From: a virus
Reading direction: 5' to 3' (one strand)
IMG/VR virus record: IMGVR_UViG_3300015158_000015
Location: 1 to 50,775 of that record
DNA: 50,775 bases
Position numbers and translations under genes: made by a program. Below are positions 4,190 through 28,500 of the stretch, in pieces. The notes under the pieces are model-generated. The model saw only the letters and a list, made by a program, of their open reading frames with translations. It did no database searches and was not told the origin of the DNA. Positions within the stretch are counted from its first letter, which is position 1. Every line of letters begins with the position of its first letter.

Positions 4190-7100
4190 CTACTGCCCGA
4201 ACCGCTTGTCCAGACTGCGCTCCTTGCGCTGATGTTCCCTGACGGCAGCGCCATAGCCCTTCGGGTGACCCTGCGAGATCGAAACGCCTGCGAACGGCGC
4301 GAGGATCTTGAGTTTCGACGTCGCCGGGTCTTTCTTGCTCTCGTCGTCGAGAAGATCAGCGCCAGAGCGCAGCGCATCCGCCGGGAGTTGCGCCTCGGCG
4401 AAGTGCAGCGCGATCCGTGCCGCGTTCTTGAACCATTCCGCGCCCTCGGGATTCGGCCGCCAGATCGGCGTCGGCCGGTCGAACCCGGAGCCGACATATT
4501 TGTCGTTGAGCATCGTCTGCAACGCGGGGCGCGCGAAGGTGCCGAGCTTACGCAGGATCATGTCGCCCGGCGCGGTCGGCCAGCCGGTGAATTCCTCGCC
4601 GATCTTGCCCATCGGGTTGCGGCCGTAGATCGCGCGGCCGTTCCGGTCGTGATAGAGGAGCACGCGCGCTTCCATGCCTTCGCGCTTGCGCGGTTCATTG
4701 GTGGCGGTGGAGGACAATTTCCACAGCGAATTGATCGGGTGCAGTGCCGTGTCGGCCGGATGGTCACCGGTGTGTTGAATGAGGTCGATGAAGCGCTTGT
4801 AGTAGTCGGCGAATAGCTCCGGCCAATCCTTTTCGCCGCGCAGTTTCTTGAAGGCGTCCTGCATGAGCGATGTCGTGATGACCCCGAGCGCAATGTCGAG
4901 GATCAGGATCGCCATAGACTTCCGTTTGGCGAAGGTCTTGATCTTGCCCAAGGCCTCAGGCCCTGCATCGCGCAGGATTTGCGCCTGCACGTCGCGCGGC
5001 AGGCCAACCAGCATATCCTTCATGGCGCCGAGATTGCCGAAGGTGAAGGTGCGAGAGAACAGAATGAGATTTGCGAGCTTGCGCGCGCCTGATGACATCG
5101 CCTCGATCGGTAGAGCTCCGGCGTAACGGTTGGCAAAGTGCGCGGCGGTACGCGAGGCCGTCTGTGCGTCATGCCCTTTGGCGATGAGATCGCGCCGCAT
5201 GTTGACGTAGAGACCCATCTGAAGGTCGGCGACGCGATCCCACAGCAGCTTATTGTGCCAGAAGTCGCCCGCTTTATCGACGGCGCGCTTGACGGCATCG
5301 CCCGCGCCTCGGTCGAACAGGCCGGGGATGAAGCCGAGAACCTGCGATGTCCACGAGTTACCGGGCGCGAGGCTCGGCTCCTCCATGATCGAGGTGATGT
5401 CCTGATTGAAGAAGCGCTTGCCGATCGGCACCATGCCGGCGTCGATCGCCTCGCGCATCTGGGTCGGATCGTGCTTGGCGCGGTTGCCCTCGAAATAGAT
5501 GAACGTGCTCGCCACCTTGAGCGGGTAAGACGGCATCGCGCGAGAGTATTCCACCATGTTGTGGATGACCGGTGAGTACATCACCATGCTCATGGCCTTG
5601 CCCTTGAGCGCCATGAAGCCGTTGTAGATTGCCCCGTTGTCTTTGCCCAAGACGGCGAGCAGCGGGCCCTTGAAGTCCGAACGGATATAGATCGGCACGC
5701 GCTCGAAGGCGGGCGTCCCGTCGTCGTATTTTGCGCCCTCCCATTTTCCCGTCTTCTCATTCTTTTGCATGATCGGCCGGTACGTCTTGAACGCCGGATG
5801 ATCGAGCGTAAACCAGTGTTGGCCATCCTGCGGCTCGTGGCCTTCGCTTACGGTACGAGCACCGGCCAAATCCCCCATGCTCTTGATCTTGTTGACGAGA
5901 GCGCGCGCGGCGATGGCCTCCTGTAGCTTCGCGGTGCCGAGCGACAACGCACGAATGTCCTTCGCAATCTTGGCGTTCGGGCCGAACCGCGCCTTCATCG
6001 CCGCCTCGGTCTCGTCAGCCGTCATGTATTTGCGCTGCTTGGTCTGCCCCGTCGTGGTGCGGAAACCGCGGCCTATACCTTCAGGACTTGCGGCGGGTCC
6101 GGCACCGGACGGCGGCTTATCGAAGCCGCCCGCCTCGTTCATCAGCACCATCATGCGCGGCACGTAGGACGGAAGCCCCTCGCCTTCCACGATCCCCACG
6201 TCTTGGGCAGCCGCCCATGTCCGGTTCGCCTCGTCTTGAAGGCCCTCGACCACCTTGCGCTCGGGGTCGCTCAGACCCGACATACCCTCGCCGGCCTTCG
6301 CCTCGATCCCGGTTTGCAGCGCGACGCTCTCATGGTCGGCCGCGCCCCACATCTTGGCGCGTTCTTCCGGCGTGAAGTTTTTCTTGATGAGGTCATCGCG
6401 CCGCGACCACTGGTGACGCGCTTGGCGCACGGCGTTTGCAAAGTCCTTTGCTGCCGCCTGTGCCTCAACCGACCCGACGGCCATCGGTGCGACCTTGAGC
6501 AAGCCCTCGTCGACGATCTCCATTGCTTTATCGGCGGCCGTGCGCAACGCGCCTACCTTCTCCGCAACCGGGCCGTGGCGCAGCGCGAACATTTCCCCCT
6601 GCTTGGCCTGCTCGCCGAACAACGGCAGGTCGCCTACGGTCTTCTGTGTCTTGCCGGAGCGCAGCGGCTCGGCACCCTTGCGCTCGGCCAGCGCTCGGTC
6701 ACTGATCTTTTCAGCGCCGGGAATGACAGTTTGCGGCTTGTTGTCGGCGCCCGCCTCGGTCTTGAACAGGTCGCCTTCGCCCTTGCGGACGGCGTAGGCT
6801 GGCTCTCCGGCCTTGTCTGCATTGCGCGGGCGCGCGCCGATCTCGCCCTCGTCGATCTTGCGGAAGATGCTCTCGGCGGTCTTGAAGCCGCGCCCGCGCA
6901 GCGCGTTGCCGAGCGCTTCAAAGAAATCCCTGATGCGGCGGAACAGCCGGGCAATTCGTCCGTCTTTGGTCGCAGGCTTGCCCGCCGCCCATTCCGCATA
7001 GGCGTGCGCGACACCTTCCTCGGTCTTCACGTCGTCGGAAAAGGCCGAATAGCGCTCGTCGATGTTGTGCTGCTCGCGCCACTTGTCGGCCGCGCGGGAG

Positions 7101-10100
7101 AGGATCGACCATTCGCCATCGGTGAACAGGCCGAGATCGCGCAGCGCATGCAGGGCTTCGTGGTGCAGTGTGCGGAACGTGTTCTTGCCATCGAGCGCGA
7201 CGGTGATCGCACTCCTGAGATAGGCGCCGTCGGCGCTGCGCAGTTCGCCGTCGATGTAACGCCCGATGTGGTCTTCGAGCTTGAGCGCAACGTCTTTCAG
7301 TCCGATGCGGTCGAGTTCGGCGCGGAGCGCCTTGTAAGTCTCTGCCGCACTGTCGGCGAATGCCGGCGTGACTGCGCCGTCGCGCAGCTTGAACATTTCG
7401 ACGCCGCGGTCTGTGTCCCGCGTCTCGATGGTGTCGAACAGCTTATCCAACGCTGGCCGAATTCCCAGCTTTGTCATTTCGGCGGCGGTCGGATACGCGC
7501 CACCTGCCGTGTCGATGTTGGCGAGGTAGTCGTTGATGGCACCTTTCTCGGACAGTCGGTCGACGATGTATCGCTCGAAGGCGCGCGCCGCCTTCTCGAT
7601 TGTCGTGCCGAAATAGGGCTTCGAGCGCGCCTTGTCGAATTCCGCCGAGCGGTCGGCAAAGCTGCCCTTTTGCAGCGTCGCCTCGTACTCTTTCCACGCC
7701 TTGTAGACTTCATCGCGCACCGGGCCAGAGTCGCGGTGGCGCTCGCTCATGTAGCCGCCAGCCTTGTCCTGCCGTGCGAAATAGTTGTCCAGCGCGTGCA
7801 GCCATTCGTGAGCGAGGGAGCCGGGACCGCTGCCTTTGGTGAGGTTGATTACGACGCGGCCGGGCTCGTAGTGCGCCGCCGCCGCGTTGCTGCCGCCATG
7901 CCCCCGCGCGCCGAAGGCGAGCCCAAGATCGCCGTTCAATGACAGCGCGCGTGGCGGAACGCCAACCACGTCGGCAAGGTCCATCAGCGCGTCGAACGCC
8001 CGATTGAGGTCGGCTTGCCGACGTGGCCCTTCGACATAATTCCCGAACTGGACGCCACGGAAGCCGAAGGCTTCGCCGAACATATCAGGCGAAACGTCGC
8101 CCTCGCGCAGCGCCTCGCCGCTCCGCGCGCGGTTTTCGGTGCCCCGCATGTTGGGGCCTTTGCGCATCTCGTCGATAAGCGCCTGCAGTTGGTCGCGGTT
8201 TTCTGCTAGGTACTCACGCGCGCTTTTGACGTTCTCGAAGTCTGCCTTGAGCCGGATGACCGTGCTGCGCACCTTGAGACCGAGAAAGACTTTCTTGGTG
8301 GCGCGATCATGATACACGCCGACATCGGTGTATTTCGAGCGCTCGCCTGCCTCAGTCGCGGGCTTGGCCTTGAGTTCGTTTTCGATGATCTGCTTTGCCA
8401 GCGCGACGGCTTCCGCAGGATTATCCCGGTAGGTGTACGGGTTGGCCGGATCGTTGCCGAGCGGGTTGCGCATCATGCGCTTGTCCGGCGACTCCAGGAA
8501 CCAGAACGTCTTCGACGGGGAGTATCGCTGCCCGTTGAGCATCGAATAGGAGCCTGAATTCACCCGATACTGCGCGGCGCGCGGCAGGTCGGCCGGCGCG
8601 ACACCTTCGATGGCTTCGGCGGTCAAGGGCAGCGTCTTCAGCGCATAATTGTCTCGCGCACCCTGCTCGAACTTGGCAACGTCGATCTCGCCATCCAGCA
8701 GGCGCCTGGCGAACGAGCGCAGCACCTCCACTTGGGCGGCCCACTGCTTTGCCTTGTACGGCACGCGCGGACGGTTCGGGATGGTGTCGCGCATGATCGC
8801 GATGTGAGCGAGCACCCGCTTATCCACGCCGGACGCCGCCAGTTTCTCGTAATTGGGCTGCGGGAATGATTTCGAGAGCGGTTCTGTCGCGACATTCATC
8901 TCGTCGCGCAGCGAGTCCCGGAAGCCAGCGAAGGTATCCTTGCGCGCGCCCTCGATCTTCTCGCCGAAATCCTCGATTGGCCTCAAGCCCTCGCTCGATA
9001 GTTCGAGGGCTGGTCGGGACGGCTCGCTCTGCGGTGCGCCGCTCGGCCCCTTCAGCATGTCCCGAGCCTTGGCGCGCGCGCGCTCCAGCGTCTTCACGAT
9101 CTGGATCGGCCCGACGGTCTCCTGCGCGTCCGTATCGCGCATCACCACATTGAGGCTCTCGCCGTCCGAATTCTTGACGATGAGGACTTCGGTTCCGTCT
9201 TGGCCCGGAATGCGTTCGACGAGCCCTTCCGGTTCGGCTGCCTTGGGCGGAGCGGAATCAGAACCCCCGCCTTCGGGGCGGGGCTCAGGGGTGGCGGCGG
9301 GTGTCGGCTCAGGCGCTGGTTCCGGCTTTTTCCGCAGCGGTATCTTCACGCGCGATGTAGATTCTCGCGCTCCACTAATCCGCAGTCCGGTCATGGTGTC
9401 AGCGTTCGGGAATTGATCTGCCAACTGGCTGAGAAGTCCGCGAACGGCTGCGGGGCCGATTGCATTTTTGCCGTCTCCGGCACGAACGTCACCGACGTAA
9501 AGATTTTTCCCACCCTGATTTTCCAGAATGCGAACGCTGCCCGCGACGTTGCCGGCGCCGTCCACCATCTCGAATAGATGATGGCCGTCGCTCTTGCGCT
9601 CAAGTTCGCGAAGCCGTAGGCCTGTGGCCGTCGGCTCATTGTTGACTCTTAAGTCAACAACCGGCGACGCAGGCTCGGGAATTGTCGACTTGCGCAGTTC
9701 GTCAAACTGACCGGAATGCTTGACTTGCGCGGCCCGATCTTCCTTGCGCGCAACCTTCGCCGCTTCCTTCGCGGCCTTCTTCTCCTCGATGGCCTTCGCG
9801 CGCGCGGCTTCTTTCTCTGCGACGCGACGCTCCTTGCGGACGATCTTGATGTAGGTCTGTAGCCGCGGCCGGTGCGGATGCTCGCGCGATGGCATCCAGT
9901 TGCGCCAGCGCGTGTCGGCTTCGGCTTTGATCTCGGATTCCGGGGTGCGGACGGCTGGTTCGGCCGTGCCCTGCTTTTCCGCATCATTTGATGCAGGATT
10001 TTGGGGCACTGGCTCAGGCGCCGGGGTTGCTTTCGGCTCGTCCTTCGAGCGCCGCAGGAAGTCCGGGATTTCGAGATCGTCGGCGGTCGGCGCGGGCTTT

Positions 10101-13100
10101 AAACCGGAAGTGTCGCTTTTTAAACCGGGAGCAGCGTTCCTTAAATCAGAAACCCCGCCTTCGGGGCGAGGTTGCGCTGAAAGGACGCGATGTAGCGGTT
10201 CCCATCCAAGGCCGGAATCGGCTTCCGCGACCTGTATCCATCCATTGGATGATGCTTTGGCGACGAGTTCTTTGGGATCAATTCCCAATGTCGCAGCCAC
10301 ATCGCGAAGCGTTTTGAGCGCGGCTGCGCTCAGCGGGAGTTTCGCGCTTGCCGACAGTGACGCGGTGTCGCCGCTTGGTTGCGCGGCGTAGGTGGTGATC
10401 TGCACGAGCCCATGATCTTCAGGGCCGCCCGCGCCGCTCATGGCGGTGAGGAGGGCCTCGTGCCCTTCCGCCTCGTTTACCGCACTGCCCGTCGCATCAA
10501 ATAGGCGGCCGCGCTTGTCGACAACGAGGGCCATTTCAACGGAATTGGCCACGTCGGCAACATCGATAGCGCCGCGTCCGCCTACGCTCTTGATGAACTG
10601 ATCGAGGTTTTCCAAGGATCGTCGCCCATCGCGCGCGACGTCAATGATCTCGTCGTCGTGGCCGAACATCAGCCCTTGAGGCCGAGTCTCCACTTGCCGG
10701 TCAGCTTTGGCAATCCCGGAAGCTAAAACCTTCCCGGGCCCGGCTTCATCGGCTACTACGCCTGCCCGGCCGGCTCCATGCTCTGCTGCTCGGAGCCCTG
10801 AGGTGTCGAGGCTTTGCCCGCGTCCAGCATGTTCAGCGCCACCAGATTGCTCGCGAGGCGGCGCGCTTCCTGCCGCTGGCTCGACTTGAGCCCCGGCTGG
10901 CTGTTCGCGCGCTGGCGCAAGCTCTGCGCGAGCCTGATGCGTTCCCGTGGCTGCATTCTCGGGCGGTTGCCCATGTTCGACTCCTGCAAGCGGCTCGAAT
11001 GATACCAGATGATCTTCGCCAGCCATAGCGCTGCGCTCGACAATGTCGACCAGCGCATCTTCCAGATTGGCGTTATGCACCATCACCTGTTCGACGGTGG
11101 CGCGGACTTCCTCGTCGGTGAGCCGGGTTATATTGAGCGACTTCGCCATGTCGCGGACATCGGCTTCGACTTCGAGCGCGTGGGCGCGCTGCTGCTTGAC
11201 CGCCGTCTTCTCCTGCCGATCGGCGGCGGCCTGTCGGTCCGGTGCCGAATAAACGCGCTCGCCGCGGGCTTCGGCGCCAAGCGCGCCGAGCAGATGGTCG
11301 ATGGTCGATTCCGACGGACGCATCTGCATCCCGCCGGAGGCGGCGGCTTCCAGCGCGGGGGCATCGTGCAGGTAGCCGGCTTCGACCGCGGCCTCGCGCG
11401 CCCGGTCGAGTGGCATCCCGGATGAACGTAAGAGGCGGCCATAACCGGGCACGAATTTGTTGTGCAGGTCGAGCGAGCGCAGTTCGCCGCCCTGGTCCTG
11501 GATGCCGCCATTCTTGGCGAGAAACTGGAACAGCGAGAGCGGCGCGCGCTCTTTTGGGGCGGACGCTGGCTTGGGCGGCTGATAGCCGAGCGGCTTCTTG
11601 GTGTCGCCCTTGGCGAGCCACGTCTTGAATTCCGGTACCGACATTTCGGTGACCGCGCCCCAGCGGTGCTGGCCCGAGCCGTCGTTGAAGCCGGCCTCAT
11701 AGATCGAGCGGGCTTCATCCTGCGAGCGCGCACCGATGACGATCTTGTGCTCGTCGAATTTGCGGTTATCCGGATCGACCTGGTCGAAGGCATAGACGTG
11801 CGGCGAGTTCGGATCGGGTCCGAGATAAAGGTCGATGTGATCGCCGTCCTTTCCGACCGTACTTTTTATGTACCCATAAGGGTGTTCAAGCGTGTGCGAC
11901 CATGGCGCGCCGTCGGCACCGATCCCGGTGCGGTCCTGTCCGGCCTCCGTCTCGACCGCGATGTCGAGCCCGTTCCATTTCAGGTGCCGTTTGGAATAAT
12001 TCCCGGCTTCGGCTTGCGCCGGGGTCGGATCGGCGGTGCGCTCGGCGCCGGCATGCACGTCGTTTGACGTCTGGACGTCAATCGGGGCTTCCCGGCTACC
12101 CGGTTGCGGCGGGATGCGTGCCAGCGTCCGATCGCCTTCGACTTTGGTCTCAAGCGTGGGATCGAGCGCTGCACCCTGGGGAACCGGCTGCCAGTCATCG
12201 GACGGCTGCCACGCCTTCGCCTCGGCCATGTCGCGGCGGATTTCCGCGGCCGTGCGCGGGTCGTCGAACAGCGCTTGGATATGAGGGTGGCTGGTCGGCG
12301 GGGCGGGAGGAGGCGCAGGCGTGTCGATATTCTGGACCACCTGGGAGGGCGCAGAAATCGACACGGGCGCAGGTTGGGGGTTCGCGCCCGTTTGAAGTGG
12401 CGGCTGACCACCATTCAAAGTGTTGTCGACAACACTTTGCGGGGCGGGCGCTGTAACCGGTGCCGCGGCCTGTGCGGCGGGCGGCGTCTGCCCCGCCTCC
12501 GGTGCCACGGACGGAACGCTCACCGGCGGGGCTGCCTGAGGCGCAGCAGGTGCTTCTGGCGATATAACAATATTGTTATATGCCGTCCCGGGTTGAGCTG
12601 CGGCGGCGCCCGTTACAGCCGGAGTGGGTGGCGGTGCGACCCCGGCAAAGCCCGCGTTCTGATATTCGGCGGTGCGCTGGGCCGGCGTCATCGCGTCGAT
12701 TTGTTCGGGCCGATAGCCGTAGCGCAGGAGCCCGTCTCGCTCGGCGGCCGCGGGATCGATCGCGGCTTGCGGCTCCGGTGCGCGCGGAACTGGCGATGCG
12801 GGCGGTGTGGCTTCCGGCGGCGGGAGGGCGAGCGTCGGACCGGAGGGCGCGGGTTGGCTGAAGCCACCCTTGGCGACTGCGGCATTATAGGCCTGCGTGC
12901 GCTCGCCGGGCGACATGGCGTCAAGTTGCTCGGCGGTGAACCCTGACCGGGTGAGCACTTCGCGCTGGAAGTTGTCCACCATCGGCGAAAGCGGAGCATC
13001 GGCCGGGCGGGTGCGCGCGGCTTCGCCAAGGAACGATGCAACGTCTTCGGGAGATGATCGCGGAGTCGGCGCGGTCGCGGCGCTGACTATCTTGTGGCCG

Positions 13101-13936
13101 CCAACCAGCGTTGCGCCGGTCGCGGCATTAAGCAGGTAACCCTGCGCCAAGTTTTCAAGCGAGAGGTCTTTGCCCTCGATTTTCGCGCTCGTGACTTGAT
13201 GCGCAGCACCAATGGCGGGCATCGACACAAAAATATCGGCGAGCGCCTTGCCGACCTGCTGCTTGGCGGTCGCGCCAGCTGATCCAAGGCCGGGGACGGC
13301 ACCCATTGCAGCACCGAATGCGCCAGCGACGCCGGATTGCAGCCATGCCCGGTTAACCGCGTCCTCGTGGCTTAGACCGTCGGCGCGCGCGCGCTGATAG
13401 GCGGGCGCAATCTCCTGAATGGCCGATCCGAGACCGAACCCCGCGATCGATCCGGCGAGCGCGCCGGGCGGTCCTGCAATTGCACCGCCGGCGGCGGCGC
13501 CACCTATGCCGGCGGCAAGGGAGGGCGAGCTTTTGGCGACGCCGTGGGCAATCTGCGCGCCCCACCAATCAGGGTTGCTATAGCCCTCCCCGAGCGGCTG
13601 CTGAAGTAGTTTGCCGACGTAGCTATTGTCCGGCTCGGCAGGCGGCTTCTCGTGCCAGCCTTGCGCCGCGGCCGCGGTCTCCTGCAGGCCTTCCTTGCCG
13701 CCACGGACAAGAGCTTGTCCGACGGTCGAGAGGAACCCCGGCTGCTCCGACGCCGTATCCTCCGCGAAGGCTGGGTTCTGCGTGGAGCGCAGCGCCGGCT
13801 CGTCCACAGCCGTCAGCCCCGAAACGTCCAGCGGCTTCAGCCCGCTCACATCGAGCGGCGAAGCGCTACGCGCGTCCGTCTCGGTCAGTCCGCTCGTATC
13901 GAGTGGCTTGAGGCCGGAAACGTTGAGCCCTGCCAT
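4190..13936 (-). CDS. Giant polyvalent virion protein, 3248 residues
   Basis: Probably the largest ejected internal protein. Order: residues 1-50 carry four copies of LDxSGL (single copies again near 1043 and 1278); a Gly/Ala-rich hydrophobic region about 135-290 that could cross membranes; Pro/Ala/Gln linkers; about 655-790 an inorganic-pyrophosphatase-like domain as in phage polyvalent proteins (HPYGYIKSTVGKDGDHIDLY, FDEHKIVIG); FtsZ-like DDLEIPDFLRR at 1286-1296; about 1950-2100 a metallopeptidase-like domain with HEWLHALDNYF (HEWLH at 2043); a second HEALHALRDLGLF motif at 2259; and about 2750-3020 a helical C-terminal module like LPD38. Two HExxH motifs suggest two zinc proteases. It follows two other putative ejection proteins. 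Domain names are from memory of the families. Confidence 0.85.
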   Translation of the reverse strand: MAGLNVSGLKPLDTSGLTETDARSASPLDVSGLKPLDVSGLTAVDEPALRSTQNPAFAEDTASEQPGFLSTVGQALVRGGKEGLQETAAAAQGWHEKPPAEPDNSYVGKLLQQPLGEGYSNPDWWGAQIAHGVAKSSPSLAAGIGGAAAGGAIAGPPGALAGSIAGFGLGSAIQEIAPAYQRARADGLSHEDAVNRAWLQSGVAGAFGAAMGAVPGLGSAGATAKQQVGKALADIFVSMPAIGAAHQVTSAKIEGKDLSLENLAQGYLLNAATGATLVGGHKIVSAATAPTPRSSPEDVASFLGEAARTRPADAPLSPMVDNFQREVLTRSGFTAEQLDAMSPGERTQAYNAAVAKGGFSQPAPSGPTLALPPPEATPPASPVPRAPEPQAAIDPAAAERDGLLRYGYRPEQIDAMTPAQRTAEYQNAGFAGVAPPPTPAVTGAAAAQPGTAYNNIVISPEAPAAPQAAPPVSVPSVAPEAGQTPPAAQAAAPVTAPAPQSVVDNTLNGGQPPLQTGANPQPAPVSISAPSQVVQNIDTPAPPPAPPTSHPHIQALFDDPRTAAEIRRDMAEAKAWQPSDDWQPVPQGAALDPTLETKVEGDRTLARIPPQPGSREAPIDVQTSNDVHAGAERTADPTPAQAEAGNYSKRHLKWNGLDIAVETEAGQDRTGIGADGAPWSHTLEHPYGYIKSTVGKDGDHIDLYLGPDPNSPHVYAFDQVDPDNRKFDEHKIVIGARSQDEARSIYEAGFNDGSGQHRWGAVTEMSVPEFKTWLAKGDTKKPLGYQPPKPASAPKERAPLSLFQFLAKNGGIQDQGGELRSLDLHNKFVPGYGRLLRSSGMPLDRAREAAVEAGYLHDAPALEAAASGGMQMRPSESTIDHLLGALGAEARGERVYSAPDRQAAADRQEKTAVKQQRAHALEVEADVRDMAKSLNITRLTDEEVRATVEQVMVHNANLEDALVDIVERSAMAGEDHLVSFEPLAGVEHGQPPENAATGTHQARAELAPAREQPAGAQVEPAAGSAPPREQSGGAEHAGRGQSLDTSGLRAAEHGAGRAGVVADEAGPGKVLASGIAKADRQVETRPQGLMFGHDDEIIDVARDGRRSLENLDQFIKSVGGRGAIDVADVANSVEMALVVDKRGRLFDATGSAVNEAEGHEALLTAMSGAGGPEDHGLVQITTYAAQPSGDTASLSASAKLPLSAAALKTLRDVAATLGIDPKELVAKASSNGWIQVAEADSGLGWEPLHRVLSAQPRPEGGVSDLRNAAPGLKSDTSGLKPAPTADDLEIPDFLRRSKDEPKATPAPEPVPQNPASNDAEKQGTAEPAVRTPESEIKAEADTRWRNWMPSREHPHRPRLQTYIKIVRKERRVAEKEAARAKAIEEKKAAKEAAKVARKEDRAAQVKHSGQFDELRKSTIPEPASPVVDLRVNNEPTATGLRLRELERKSDGHHLFEMVDGAGNVAGSVRILENQGGKNLYVGDVRAGDGKNAIGPAAVRGLLSQLADQFPNADTMTGLRISGARESTSRVKIPLRKKPEPAPEPTPAATPEPRPEGGGSDSAPPKAAEPEGLVERIPGQDGTEVLIVKNSDGESLNVVMRDTDAQETVGPIQIVKTLERARAKARDMLKGPSGAPQSEPSRPALELSSEGLRPIEDFGEKIEGARKDTFAGFRDSLRDEMNVATEPLSKSFPQPNYEKLAASGVDKRVLAHIAIMRDTIPNRPRVPYKAKQWAAQVEVLRSFARRLLDGEIDVAKFEQGARDNYALKTLPLTAEAIEGVAPADLPRAAQYRVNSGSYSMLNGQRYSPSKTFWFLESPDKRMMRNPLGNDPANPYTYRDNPAEAVALAKQIIENELKAKPATEAGERSKYTDVGVYHDRATKKVFLGLKVRSTVIRLKADFENVKSAREYLAENRDQLQALIDEMRKGPNMRGTENRARSGEALREGDVSPDMFGEAFGFRGVQFGNYVEGPRRQADLNRAFDALMDLADVVGVPPRALSLNGDLGLAFGARGHGGSNAAAAHYEPGRVVINLTKGSGPGSLAHEWLHALDNYFARQDKAGGYMSERHRDSGPVRDEVYKAWKEYEATLQKGSFADRSAEFDKARSKPYFGTTIEKAARAFERYIVDRLSEKGAINDYLANIDTAGGAYPTAAEMTKLGIRPALDKLFDTIETRDTDRGVEMFKLRDGAVTPAFADSAAETYKALRAELDRIGLKDVALKLEDHIGRYIDGELRSADGAYLRSAITVALDGKNTFRTLHHEALHALRDLGLFTDGEWSILSRAADKWREQHNIDERYSAFSDDVKTEEGVAHAYAEWAAGKPATKDGRIARLFRRIRDFFEALGNALRGRGFKTAESIFRKIDEGEIGARPRNADKAGEPAYAVRKGEGDLFKTEAGADNKPQTVIPGAEKISDRALAERKGAEPLRSGKTQKTVGDLPLFGEQAKQGEMFALRHGPVAEKVGALRTAADKAMEIVDEGLLKVAPMAVGSVEAQAAAKDFANAVRQARHQWSRRDDLIKKNFTPEERAKMWGAADHESVALQTGIEAKAGEGMSGLSDPERKVVEGLQDEANRTWAAAQDVGIVEGEGLPSYVPRMMVLMNEAGGFDKPPSGAGPAASPEGIGRGFRTTTGQTKQRKYMTADETEAAMKARFGPNAKIAKDIRALSLGTAKLQEAIAARALVNKIKSMGDLAGARTVSEGHEPQDGQHWFTLDHPAFKTYRPIMQKNEKTGKWEGAKYDDGTPAFERVPIYIRSDFKGPLLAVLGKDNGAIYNGFMALKGKAMSMVMYSPVIHNMVEYSRAMPSYPLKVASTFIYFEGNRAKHDPTQMREAIDAGMVPIGKRFFNQDITSIMEEPSLAPGNSWTSQVLGFIPGLFDRGAGDAVKRAVDKAGDFWHNKLLWDRVADLQMGLYVNMRRDLIAKGHDAQTASRTAAHFANRYAGALPIEAMSSGARKLANLILFSRTFTFGNLGAMKDMLVGLPRDVQAQILRDAGPEALGKIKTFAKRKSMAILILDIALGVITTSLMQDAFKKLRGEKDWPELFADYYKRFIDLIQHTGDHPADTALHPINSLWKLSSTATNEPRKREGMEARVLLYHDRNGRAIYGRNPMGKIGEEFTGWPTAPGDMILRKLGTFARPALQTMLNDKYVGSGFDRPTPIWRPNPEGAEWFKNAARIALHFAEAQLPADALRSGADLLDDESKKDPATSKLKILAPFAGVSISQGHPKGYGAAVREHQRKERSLDKRFGQ
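9256..9280. repeat. 25-bp direct repeat with hairpin, copy 1
   Basis: A 25-bp unit matching 24 of 25 positions at 10144-10168, in the same reading frame of the giant gene, coding PRPEGGxSD both times. It contains a GC-rich hairpin closed by TTCG. It lies in a linker. Confidence 0.7.
9639..9660. repeat. Inverted repeat inside the giant gene
   Basis: Arms TTGTTGACT and AGTCAACAA, nine perfect pairs around a 4-base loop, in a linker (PVVDLRVNNEP). Confidence 0.75.
10144..10168. repeat. 25-bp direct repeat with hairpin, copy 2
   Basis: Second copy of the 9256-9280 unit, one mismatch, same frame. It codes PRPEGGVSD just before the third LDxSGL-like peptide. Confidence 0.7.
12416..12439. repeat. 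Perfect 24-bp palindrome inside the giant gene
   Basis: Twelve-base half CAAAGTGTTGTC followed directly by its exact reverse complement, centred on GTCGAC. It codes QSVVDNTL in a low-complexity linker. A second, imperfect inverted repeat (TTTGAA-GTGG ... CCAC-ATTCAAA) overlaps its left edge. Confidence 0.85.
12562..12581. repeat. Perfect 20-bp AT-rich palindrome inside the giant gene
   Basis: ATATAACAAT followed by its exact reverse complement, about 120 bp from the 24-bp palindrome and AT-rich in a GC-rich gene. It codes YNNIVI in a Pro/Ala linker. Confidence 0.85.
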
Positions 13937-26590: not shown

Positions 26591-27376
26591 TTAGGCCGCC
26601 GCCGCGGTCTTCACCGCGATGGTGCCGAAGTCCTGCGCGGTCGAGGAGTCGTAGATGCTCTTGAACTGCGGCTTGAGCATCCCGATCTTGCGGCCGACGC
26701 CGATGCCCTGGCGGTTCTGGTAGTCGGTCTTGTCCGACTCCCGCCAAAACATGTTGCCGATCATGGCAAGGCCCGCGGCCTGGCGGCCGAGCAGGATCGC
26801 CTGCGCACCGTCAACCGTCGAACCCGAACCCCACTTGGAGCTCGCGCCCAGCCCTAAGGTGTTGAACACCTTGGCGTGGCTGTAGAGGACCACGCCCTGC
26901 ACGACCGCGAGTGCGCCCGTGAACAGCGGATTGCTCTTGCCGGTCTTCTCGGCCGACCGCACGATGGTCTGGTAGGTCGGGTCGAGAACGAGATCGCGCT
27001 CCTGCTCCGGCGACATCACCATGCAGTAGTAGCCCTTGCCGCCGTCACGGATCGGATTGAGCCGCTTGCGGATGGCCAGTTGCTTGGCGCGCACGATGGT
27101 CGCCCAGGACATCTTGTCCGTGGTTGCCAGCGTGGCCTCGCTCGTCGCCGAACCCGCGTACAGAATGCGGTTCGAGGACGGAGCGACAACGTCCGCAGCA
27201 AAGCGCAGCGAAGGAAGCTGCGAGCCGGTGCGGGTCGTGCCGTCGAGCTTGAGCGTGTAGGCGCGGCCGGACATCGTCAGGAACATCAGTTCGTCGAGCT
27301 TGTCGGCGAGCCAGAACCCGAGCTTCTCCTTGCCTTCCTCGCGGAAGCGGATGACCGTGGCCTGCTCGGCCATTTC
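26591..27376 (-). CDS. Major capsid protein, exon 2 (N4-gp56 type)
   Basis: 261 codons, beginning EMAEQATVIRFREEGKEKLGFWLADKLDELMF. Joined to exon 1 (28174-28500) it makes a 370-residue coat protein of the DUF4043/N4-gp56 family. The family signature WLADKLDELMFLTMSGRAY is here, and RAGRDQSFFF-like plus QTIRIDQLRH are in exon 1. The splice point follows ACG at 27377: exon 1 ends on a full Gly codon and exon 2 starts on a full Glu codon, so the frame is kept (SKG-EMAEQ). Without splicing, this half would have no proper start. Confidence 0.88.
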   Translation of the reverse strand, partial: EMAEQATVIRFREEGKEKLGFWLADKLDELMFLTMSGRAYTLKLDGTTRTGSQLPSLRFAADVVAPSSNRILYAGSATSEATLATTDKMSWATIVRAKQLAIRKRLNPIRDGGKGYYCMVMSPEQERDLVLDPTYQTIVRSAEKTGKSNPLFTGALAVVQGVVLYSHAKVFNTLGLGASSKWGSGSTVDGAQAILLGRQAAGLAMIGNMFWRESDKTDYQNRQGIGVGRKIGMLKPQFKSIYDSSTAQDFGTIAVKTAAAA

Positions 27377-28173
27377 CGTTGTGTTCAACCGGGGTTCGCT
27401 ATTCCCCGGCCCGTCGTCGCAGCAGGTTTGCGCCGACCGCTGCATGTCGCCATGCAGACCAGACTATATCATCACCCAATGTGCACTTGGGTGCTTCGCG
27501 CTTCGGGCCGCTTGGCCCTACTCCCTTGCGGGATAGTCGTTGAACCTTCTCTCAGTTTGTGGGCACAGATGCCGCCATTGCGGTGCTTGCTAAGATTGCA
27601 GTTATAGCAAAGCACCTGAAGGTCATCCGGGAAGTCGTTGTCGATGATCCATGCGTAGAAATTGCCGGACCAACGAACCCCTCGGATATTCCTCCTGAAC
27701 GCCGCACCATCTTCCTTCATGTGGTCGATGGTGAGCATTGTCGGCTCTGTCTCTCCGCAGCAGGCGCACTTGAAGCCGCCGTAGGCGGCGAACACGCGCT
27801 CCTTGACGTCCGAGTACCACGCTTTCTTGATCGCCTTGCGTTTCGGAAGGGTCCGATCACGCCAGCGCTTCAGAATATCGCGGGCTCGCTGCGGGTTTTC
27901 AGCCCGTCGTCTTTGCTCCTTCGTCGCCTGCTTGACGCGATGACAAACAAGACAGGTATGTTGCCTGTACTGCTTGCCGCGGGTCTTCTTGCTGTAGACG
28001 GGAGCGAATTGATCGAGTGGCTTTATCTCGCCACACGACTTGCACTTACGTTCAAGCTGAGAGCTTGGCTGCTGATTGTCTGTCATAACCCTTATTAACA
28101 AGGATTAAGCAGGTTTTCCAGCAATTCACGAAGTTATCTACCGCCCATTACTGAGCGGTGGGGCTTAATGGTA
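27377..28173 (-). ncRNA. Group I intron in the coat gene, with HNH ORF
   Basis: Conserved core elements in order on the minus strand: P-like AATTGCTGGAAAACCT (28126-28111), Q-like AATCAGCAGCCAAGC (28077-28063), R-like GTTCAACGACTAT (27545-27533) and S-like GATATAGTCTGG (27470-27459). R and S pair as P7 (GACTAT/ATAGTC). P1 is exon GGGT with intron GCCC (28164-28161), giving the U-G pair at the 5' site. P10 is CCATT in the P1 loop with AATGG of exon 2. Two 3' hairpins follow (27440-27457 with a GCGA loop, 27389-27409). The intron ends in G. Layout resembles subgroup IA. Confidence 0.9.
27472..28086 (-). CDS. Intron-encoded HNH homing endonuclease
   Basis: 204 residues from ATG 28086 (AAGG upstream). 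The N-terminal zinc pair CKSCGEIKPLDQF with CLVCHR is followed by a basic helix. The nuclease core is FKCACCGETEPTMLTIDHMKEDG then DLQVLCYNCNLSKHRNG, an HNH finger with two CxxC pairs. It would cut intron-less coat genes to drive homing. The ORF begins between P and Q and its last 25 codons are encoded by the R element and the P7-adjacent region; its stop touches the S element. Translation and ribozyme folding therefore compete. Confidence 0.85.
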   Translation of the reverse strand: MTDNQQPSSQLERKCKSCGEIKPLDQFAPVYSKKTRGKQYRQHTCLVCHRVKQATKEQRRRAENPQRARDILKRWRDRTLPKRKAIKKAWYSDVKERVFAAYGGFKCACCGETEPTMLTIDHMKEDGAAFRRNIRGVRWSGNFYAWIIDNDFPDDLQVLCYNCNLSKHRNGGICAHKLREGSTTIPQGSRAKRPEARSTQVHIG

Positions 28174-28500
28174 ACCCTTCGACTTCACGCCGTGACGCAA
28201 TTGGTCGATGCGGATCGTCTGGGAGTCGTTGATGAGCGCTTCTTCGTTGTCGTCGAGCTTGTTGTCGCCGATGACACCGTCACTCGTCAGATCCATGACG
28301 AGCTGCATCACGCATTCGAGACCACGCTCGGTCTCGGTCAGTTCGGTCACCCGCTGGATGATCGAGCTTTTGTCGCTGTCCCCTTTGCCAACGAAGCCGT
28401 TGGAGAAGAAGAACGACTGGTCGCGACCCGCGATCCAGAGCTTGGTGGACCAGACCTTCTTTTGCGCGGCCTGGAGTGCACCGAAGTCAGTAACGGCCAT
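28174..28500 (-). CDS. Major capsid protein, exon 1
   Basis: 109 codons: MAVTDFGALQAAQKKVWSTK then WIAGRDQSFFFSNGFVGKGD and TIRIDQLRHGVKSKG. This is the N-terminal arm and first part of the N4-gp56-type coat protein. In the unspliced RNA the frame reads only two codons into the intron before TAA at 28165-28167. It starts after the scaffold gene and a strong hairpin. See exon 2 for the rest. Confidence 0.88.

Follow-up and report, generated by a model that had tools for sequence, protein, structure and literature searches.

In the td intron of phage T4, which encodes the endonuclease I-TevI, RNA structure hides the ribosome-binding site of the open reading frame (ORF), and translation of the ORF has been shown experimentally to disturb splicing (PMC2988022). 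Overlap between the 3′ end of the I-TevI ORF and the ribozyme core, and its cost to splicing, are likewise established, and such overlap is common to many intron endonucleases (PMC2988022). Introns in coat genes were previously known from Tuc2009 and LittleE, and for the capsid intron of LittleE, a Cluster J mycobacteriophage, splicing was demonstrated by RT-PCR and N-terminal sequencing (PMC3706429). In the open-access literature we found no report of introns in coat genes of the N4-gp56 type. Such a gene is present in the window, by which we mean the whole 50,775-nucleotide stretch of IMG/VR record IMGVR_UViG_3300015158_000015 that was analysed, and it very probably carries a mobile intron of group IA that encodes an HNH endonuclease and would follow the cycle proposed below and belong to a coat-gene lineage. 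We establish here the boundaries and fold of the intron, the integrity of its ORF, purifying selection on its exons and the distribution of its relatives. The locus is organised as follows:

28500..28174, minus strand: coat gene exon 1, 109 codons (1-109), last codon GGT; phrog_334, E 3.5e-19; junction placed from uninterrupted homologues.
28173..27377, minus strand: group I intron, 797 bases; RF00028, 36.3 bits, E 1.9e-7; core covariation; empty-site alignment.
27472..28086, minus strand: HNH endonuclease ORF, 204 residues, ATG at 28086, stop at 27472; phrog_2255 HNH endonuclease, E 5.5e-16.
27376..26591, minus strand: coat gene exon 2, codons 110-370 and stop; phrog_334, E 2.6e-53.

The unspliced coat frame reads GGT TAC CAT TAA, with the stop three codons inside the insert, while joining the exons at 28174/27376 gives 370 residues in frame. 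Each exon separately matches the phrog_334 major head protein, and the joined product matches Pfam PF13252 (Phage_capsid_3; E 3.1e-37, 128.8 bits) over positions 6-375 of the 376 in the profile, a full-length match that places it in the N4-gp56 family. The first-pass annotation, made from the letters alone, had described a coat frame that stops after 109 codons and resumes 797 bases on, restoring a 370-residue N4-gp56-type coat; both its exon coordinates and its assignment hold.

Scanning IMG/VR with the protein of exon 2 retrieved 28 loci, 27 of which cover the junction, and in all 27 the coat is uninterrupted at this point. Alignment to intron-less homologues, a check proposed with the first-pass annotation, was made with 22 of these relatives and places the junction exactly and unambiguously at KG/EM (the slash marks the junction here and below), confirming the boundaries. 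The nearest empty-site relative, L004, with 91% protein and 87.5% DNA identity to the window coat, reads ...AAGGGC/GAAATGGCC..., whereas the window reads ...AAGGGT/(intron)/GAAATGGCC.... Exon 1 thus ends in T in the window and in C (GGC) in most homologues, a difference explained by the U.G pair needed at the 5′ splice site. Other in-frame choices of terminal G at the 3′ junction were rejected, as they would add residues found in no homologue. The same relatives bear on the reading that the coat halves are two separate proteins, each with its own start and assembling together. A 284-codon ORF does open at an ATG at 27445, but this start lies in the P9 region of the intron and adds 23 residues found in no homologue, and with one uninterrupted chain in every covering relative we find a two-protein coat scarcely credible. 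Comparison with L004 gives exon dN/dS values of 0.19 and 0.14, indicating purifying selection on both exons. Selection on both, together with an intact HNH frame, argues for functional splicing; splicing and endonuclease cleavage are what we infer from the sequence.

The ribozyme itself is composed of the following elements, with pairing percentages and compensated pairs counted across 18 relatives:

28161..28177, minus strand: P1, GGGUU (28177..28173) with AGCCC (28165..28161), U28174.G28164 at the splice site; MFE fold.
28140..28159, minus strand: P2 hairpin, ACCGCUCA/UGGGCGGU; MFE fold.
28127..28133, minus strand: P3 5′ strand CUUCGUG, partner 27500..27494; 97.6% of cells paired, 5/7 pairs compensated.
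28118..28123, minus strand: P4 5′ strand UGCUGG (P element), partner 28075..28070 in Q; 92.6% paired, 4/6 compensated.
28080..28112, minus strand: P5/P5a hairpin, its 3′ strand holding the HNH AUG (28086) with AAGGG nearby; MFE fold; P5 79.6% paired.
28064..28079, minus strand: Q element (P4 3′ strand and flank), from the sequence; read by the ORF as DNQQPS, in the same frame in relatives.
28057..28063, minus strand: P6 5′ strand CUCUCAG, partner CUGAGAG 27555..27549; 81% paired, 5/5 counted pairs compensated.
27534..27546, minus strand: R element GGUUCAACGACUA, including the P7 5′ strand GACUA (27538..27534), read by the ORF as GSTTI; P7 100% paired, 3/5 pairs compensated.
27505..27532, minus strand: P7.1 (CCC/GGG) and P7.2 (GGGCC/GGCCC), extra group IA hairpins; 94.4% and 100% paired, compensated.
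27473..27493, minus strand: P8, CACCCAA/UUGGGUG; 82% paired; MFE fold.
27461..27471, minus strand: S element, including the P7 3′ strand UAGUC (27466..27462).
27370..27377, minus strand: 3′ splice site, terminal G27377 and P10 partner AAUGG (27374..27370), which pairs with CCAUU (28171..28167) over 5 bp; from the sequence.

Local MFE folds recover P1, P2, P4, P5/P5a, P7, P7.1, P7.2, P8 and P9. As in group I introns, the 5′ splice site has a U.G pair, U28174.G28164, and the intron ends in G27377. P, Q, R and S in order, the P7 pairing, the P1 with its U-G pair, the 5-bp P10 and the terminal G are all as first described. The P7.1 and P7.2 hairpins between P7 and P3 assign the intron by its predicted fold to subgroup IA, of phage type (P1-P10, P7.1, P7.2, terminal G). 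RF00028, a search with which had also been proposed, is matched at 28204..27440 (model 1-253) when the region is searched alone, although at a score below the 50-bit gathering cutoff, so that a default Rfam scan of the window reports no intron. The low score is probably due to the long ORF insert. At gathering thresholds Rfam also misses the nearest intron relatives, one excepted, and the ORF-reduced second intron of a close relative, L163, scores 61.6 bits.

The window structure, including the P3/P7 pseudoknot, was counted on an ORF-less core alignment of 18 relatives. In this alignment 91.7% of core cells are paired, compared with a shuffled mean of 71.7% and with 31.7-44.7% when the partner is slid by 1-3 columns. 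Both sides have changed in 30 of the 39 core pairs, a count reached in none of 500 shuffles, and P7 occurs among the relatives as GACUA/UAGUC, GGUCA/UGACC, GAUCA/UGAUC and GACCA/UGGUC. The core, with its predicted pseudoknot, is therefore strongly covarying, and RF00028, covariation and empty sites agree with the original proposal that the coat gene is split by a group I intron containing an HNH ORF. The sub-cutoff Rfam score would also fit a degenerate, non-splicing remnant that leaves the coat broken and the phage dead or helper-dependent. However, all core helices are intact and covarying, no stop interrupts the 204 codons of the HNH frame, purifying selection acts on the two exons, which are both in frame, and the portal and terminase genes beside the split coat are intact, which makes such a remnant very improbable.

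The HNH ORF starts in P5 and passes through Q, P6, R, P7.1, P7.2, P3′ and P8, with its stop abutting S; the span from ATG 28086 to the stop at 27472 thus covers Q at its start and R at its end, as had been noted. Its start is either ATG 28086 or TTG 28101, since no later start codon precedes the zinc-ribbon cysteines. The HNH motif and zinc-binding cysteines of an HNH homing endonuclease are present, the residues CxCCGE, DH and C.NCN being invariant among relatives, and a search of the ORF against Pfam gave no match at 0.001. In the window, as in L152 and L158, the start codon is contained in the P5 helix; in the two relatives the AUG sits within an unbroken helix, CUGUCAU/AUGACAG, and P5 is weaker in the window than in either. 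The AAGGG in P5a is close to the AUG, but it was rejected as a conserved Shine-Dalgarno sequence because it is absent from L152 and L158.

The profile matches listed include 75 non-redundant HNH ORFs. Of these, 27 have an in-frame AUG upstream from which Q is read and 9 read Q without such a start, while in L003, L153-L155, L202, L232 and L233 the ORF starts just after Q. GSTTI-like tails encoded by R are found in most of the nearest HNH relatives. The double overlap with Q and R recurs within the HNH lineage and was rejected as unique to the window. Given this read-through of Q and a 3′ overlap of the kind known from T4 I-TevI, the packing is not exceptional but a lineage trait of known kind, and calling it notable was an overstatement. 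The coat intron of L203 (2371..2890) has its HNH ORF in the P1-P2 region, ahead of P4, and not in the P6 loop. The second intron of L163 (4723..5135) holds an HNH ORF that is internally deleted and still in frame from the P5 start to the R-encoded tail.

A single-protein HNH search of viral contigs returned no match. An alignment profile of six HNHs, run on IMG/VR with HNH peptides only and no coat input, listed at least 80 loci, the contigs being assemblies and some loci near-duplicates. The best 13 of these (L152-L164) are without exception located in split N4-gp56 coat genes, and in L166, L169, L170, L175, L202 and L203 an N4-gp56 coat is broken or begun at the intron. L232 and L233 were added by DNA pattern, and L003 (MW202512.1) came from phage records. 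Among the matches listed, breaks with this HNH type fall near coat positions 12, 35, 64, 70, 88, 95, 109, 115, 139, 266 and 322, i.e., the lineage occupies about eleven N4-gp56 positions. By sequence inspection, L162, L163 and L233 have two introns in the N4-gp56 gene and L156 has three. Those of L156 (3300..5680) are group I introns at coat positions ~70, ~96 and ~115 with very short exons between them; one has no ORF, and the HNH ORFs of the other two differ. Two coat group I introns, at about 62 and 78, are also seen in MW202615.1 (L002; 1600..3900), where the first has an HNH of another type, annotated as PacI-like, the second has no ORF and the coat in the deposited annotation is truncated at its start.

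About 44 of the 80 loci listed share another flanking ORF pair, related among themselves, whose representatives match the phrog_283 major head protein and a head scaffolding protein, these matches being for representatives only. Related HNH introns, their HNH start codon likewise placed in P5, are found close to the start of the phrog_283 coat family in L205 and some 40 loci related to it. In L038 and L046, further major head families (phrog_10, phrog_422) are interrupted by introns that carry other types of HNH. Matches to the R-S-P9 core alone occur in 312 of the 50,697 phage records and extend to genes for DNA polymerase and helicase, showing that the ribozyme type is widespread and not coat-specific, whereas the HNH lineage is coat-enriched. 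That breadth, and the mutually related flanks of 44 of the at least 80 HNH loci, could mean that the apparent coat-specificity is an artefact of over-represented coat genes or contigs. We think this unlikely, as an HNH-only query nevertheless returned N4-gp56 coat genes for all of its best 13, and on a tree of 55 HNHs the host-gene label changes 8 times compared with 25.8 when shuffled. The putatively mobile lineage is thus concentrated in coat genes.

On the same tree the window groups with L152, also at site 109 (97/69), and this pair is sister to L158, at site 115 and hence six codons away (98/95). Most same-site copies cluster, including a site 88 trio (100/96), sites 64-70 (100/94), sites 95-96 (98/89) and a site 139 pair (99/96), while the three site-266 and two site-322 copies form no supported group. 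A tree from the ribozyme core alone gave no resolved branching. The truncated second intron of L163 was placed by hand at the L158 site (CGT/GTT versus GCT/ACT). The coat of L158 is 63-68% identical to that of the window. L152 has its intron at the identical site with a coat 27-37% and an HNH 47% identical to those of the window, which fits horizontal movement. The initial view that a coat intron is uncommon stands in part: the close coat relatives retrieved from IMG/VR with the exon-2 protein have no introns, and nor do nearly all of 151 annotated phage records. It was overstated in that HNH relatives recur in N4-gp56 coats and Tuc2009 and LittleE were already known.

The first-pass annotation had also assigned the phage to an alphaproteobacterial host. 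Two cellular genomes only match the coat, both alphaproteobacterial metagenome-assembled genomes (MAGs), which weakly suggests such a host. Elsewhere in the window, a 3248-codon ORF (4190..13936, minus strand) carries inorganic pyrophosphatase (InPase), LPD5 and LPD1 domains and is a giant polyvalent protein.

We propose the following cycle for the mobile group IA intron, in which the switch between translation and splicing and the endonuclease-driven homing are inferred by analogy. The transcribed intron would fold, guanosine would attack after U28174 and the exons would join as GGT/GAA, giving full-length coat protein. On unfolded or unspliced RNA, ribosomes may instead start at the AUG in P5 and produce the HNH enzyme. 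Ribosomes on this ORF would open P4-P8, so that each RNA should either splice or yield endonuclease. The enzyme would then cut intron-less coat genes, and repair would copy the intron in. Homing introns are expected to keep one site, and their route to new sites is a standing question. The occupation of about eleven N4-gp56 positions, with related HNHs in phrog_283, suggests that this lineage repeatedly took new sites and stayed in coat genes; candidate routes are relaxed endonuclease targeting or reverse splicing. More tentatively, and at slightly less than even chances in our estimation, a coat-specialised intron-endonuclease lineage took these positions, sometimes several at once, via nearby sites (109/115), and in part of it the start codon is built into P5 such that folding switches endonuclease translation off. 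With one lineage at many positions of one gene and sister copies 18 bases apart, target shift and reverse splicing become directly comparable, and HNH-intron relatives in phage coat genes offer a natural test of how introns reach new sites. With its start codon in P5, the ORF likewise makes it simple to test how translation and splicing stay apart. Split coat genes of this type are wrongly annotated as truncated coats, and the intron in the window escapes default Rfam scans.

In MW202512.1 (L003) and L152, a homologous ribozyme and HNH also occur in N4-gp56 coat genes. The intron of L003 differs in lying at coat position ~35 and in its ORF start after Q, while L152 shares the identical site in a distantly related phage. 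Proteobacterial-phage group IA introns in DNA polymerase and helicase genes, as in Xanthomonas phage CP1, have an R-S-P9 core of ~80% DNA identity, but differ in their host genes and in endonucleases that fall outside the nearest HNH set. LittleE likewise has an intron with an endonuclease ORF in its major capsid gene, although the ORF there is LAGLIDADG-like and read from the opposite strand, and capsid type and host are different. The T4 td intron resembles that of the window as a group I phage intron whose endonuclease ORF runs with its 3′ end into the structured core. However, I-TevI belongs to the GIY-YIG enzymes, its intron sits in a thymidylate synthase gene, and a dedicated hairpin and a late promoter control it, whereas the HNH ORF of the window has its start within P5 and runs through Q as well.
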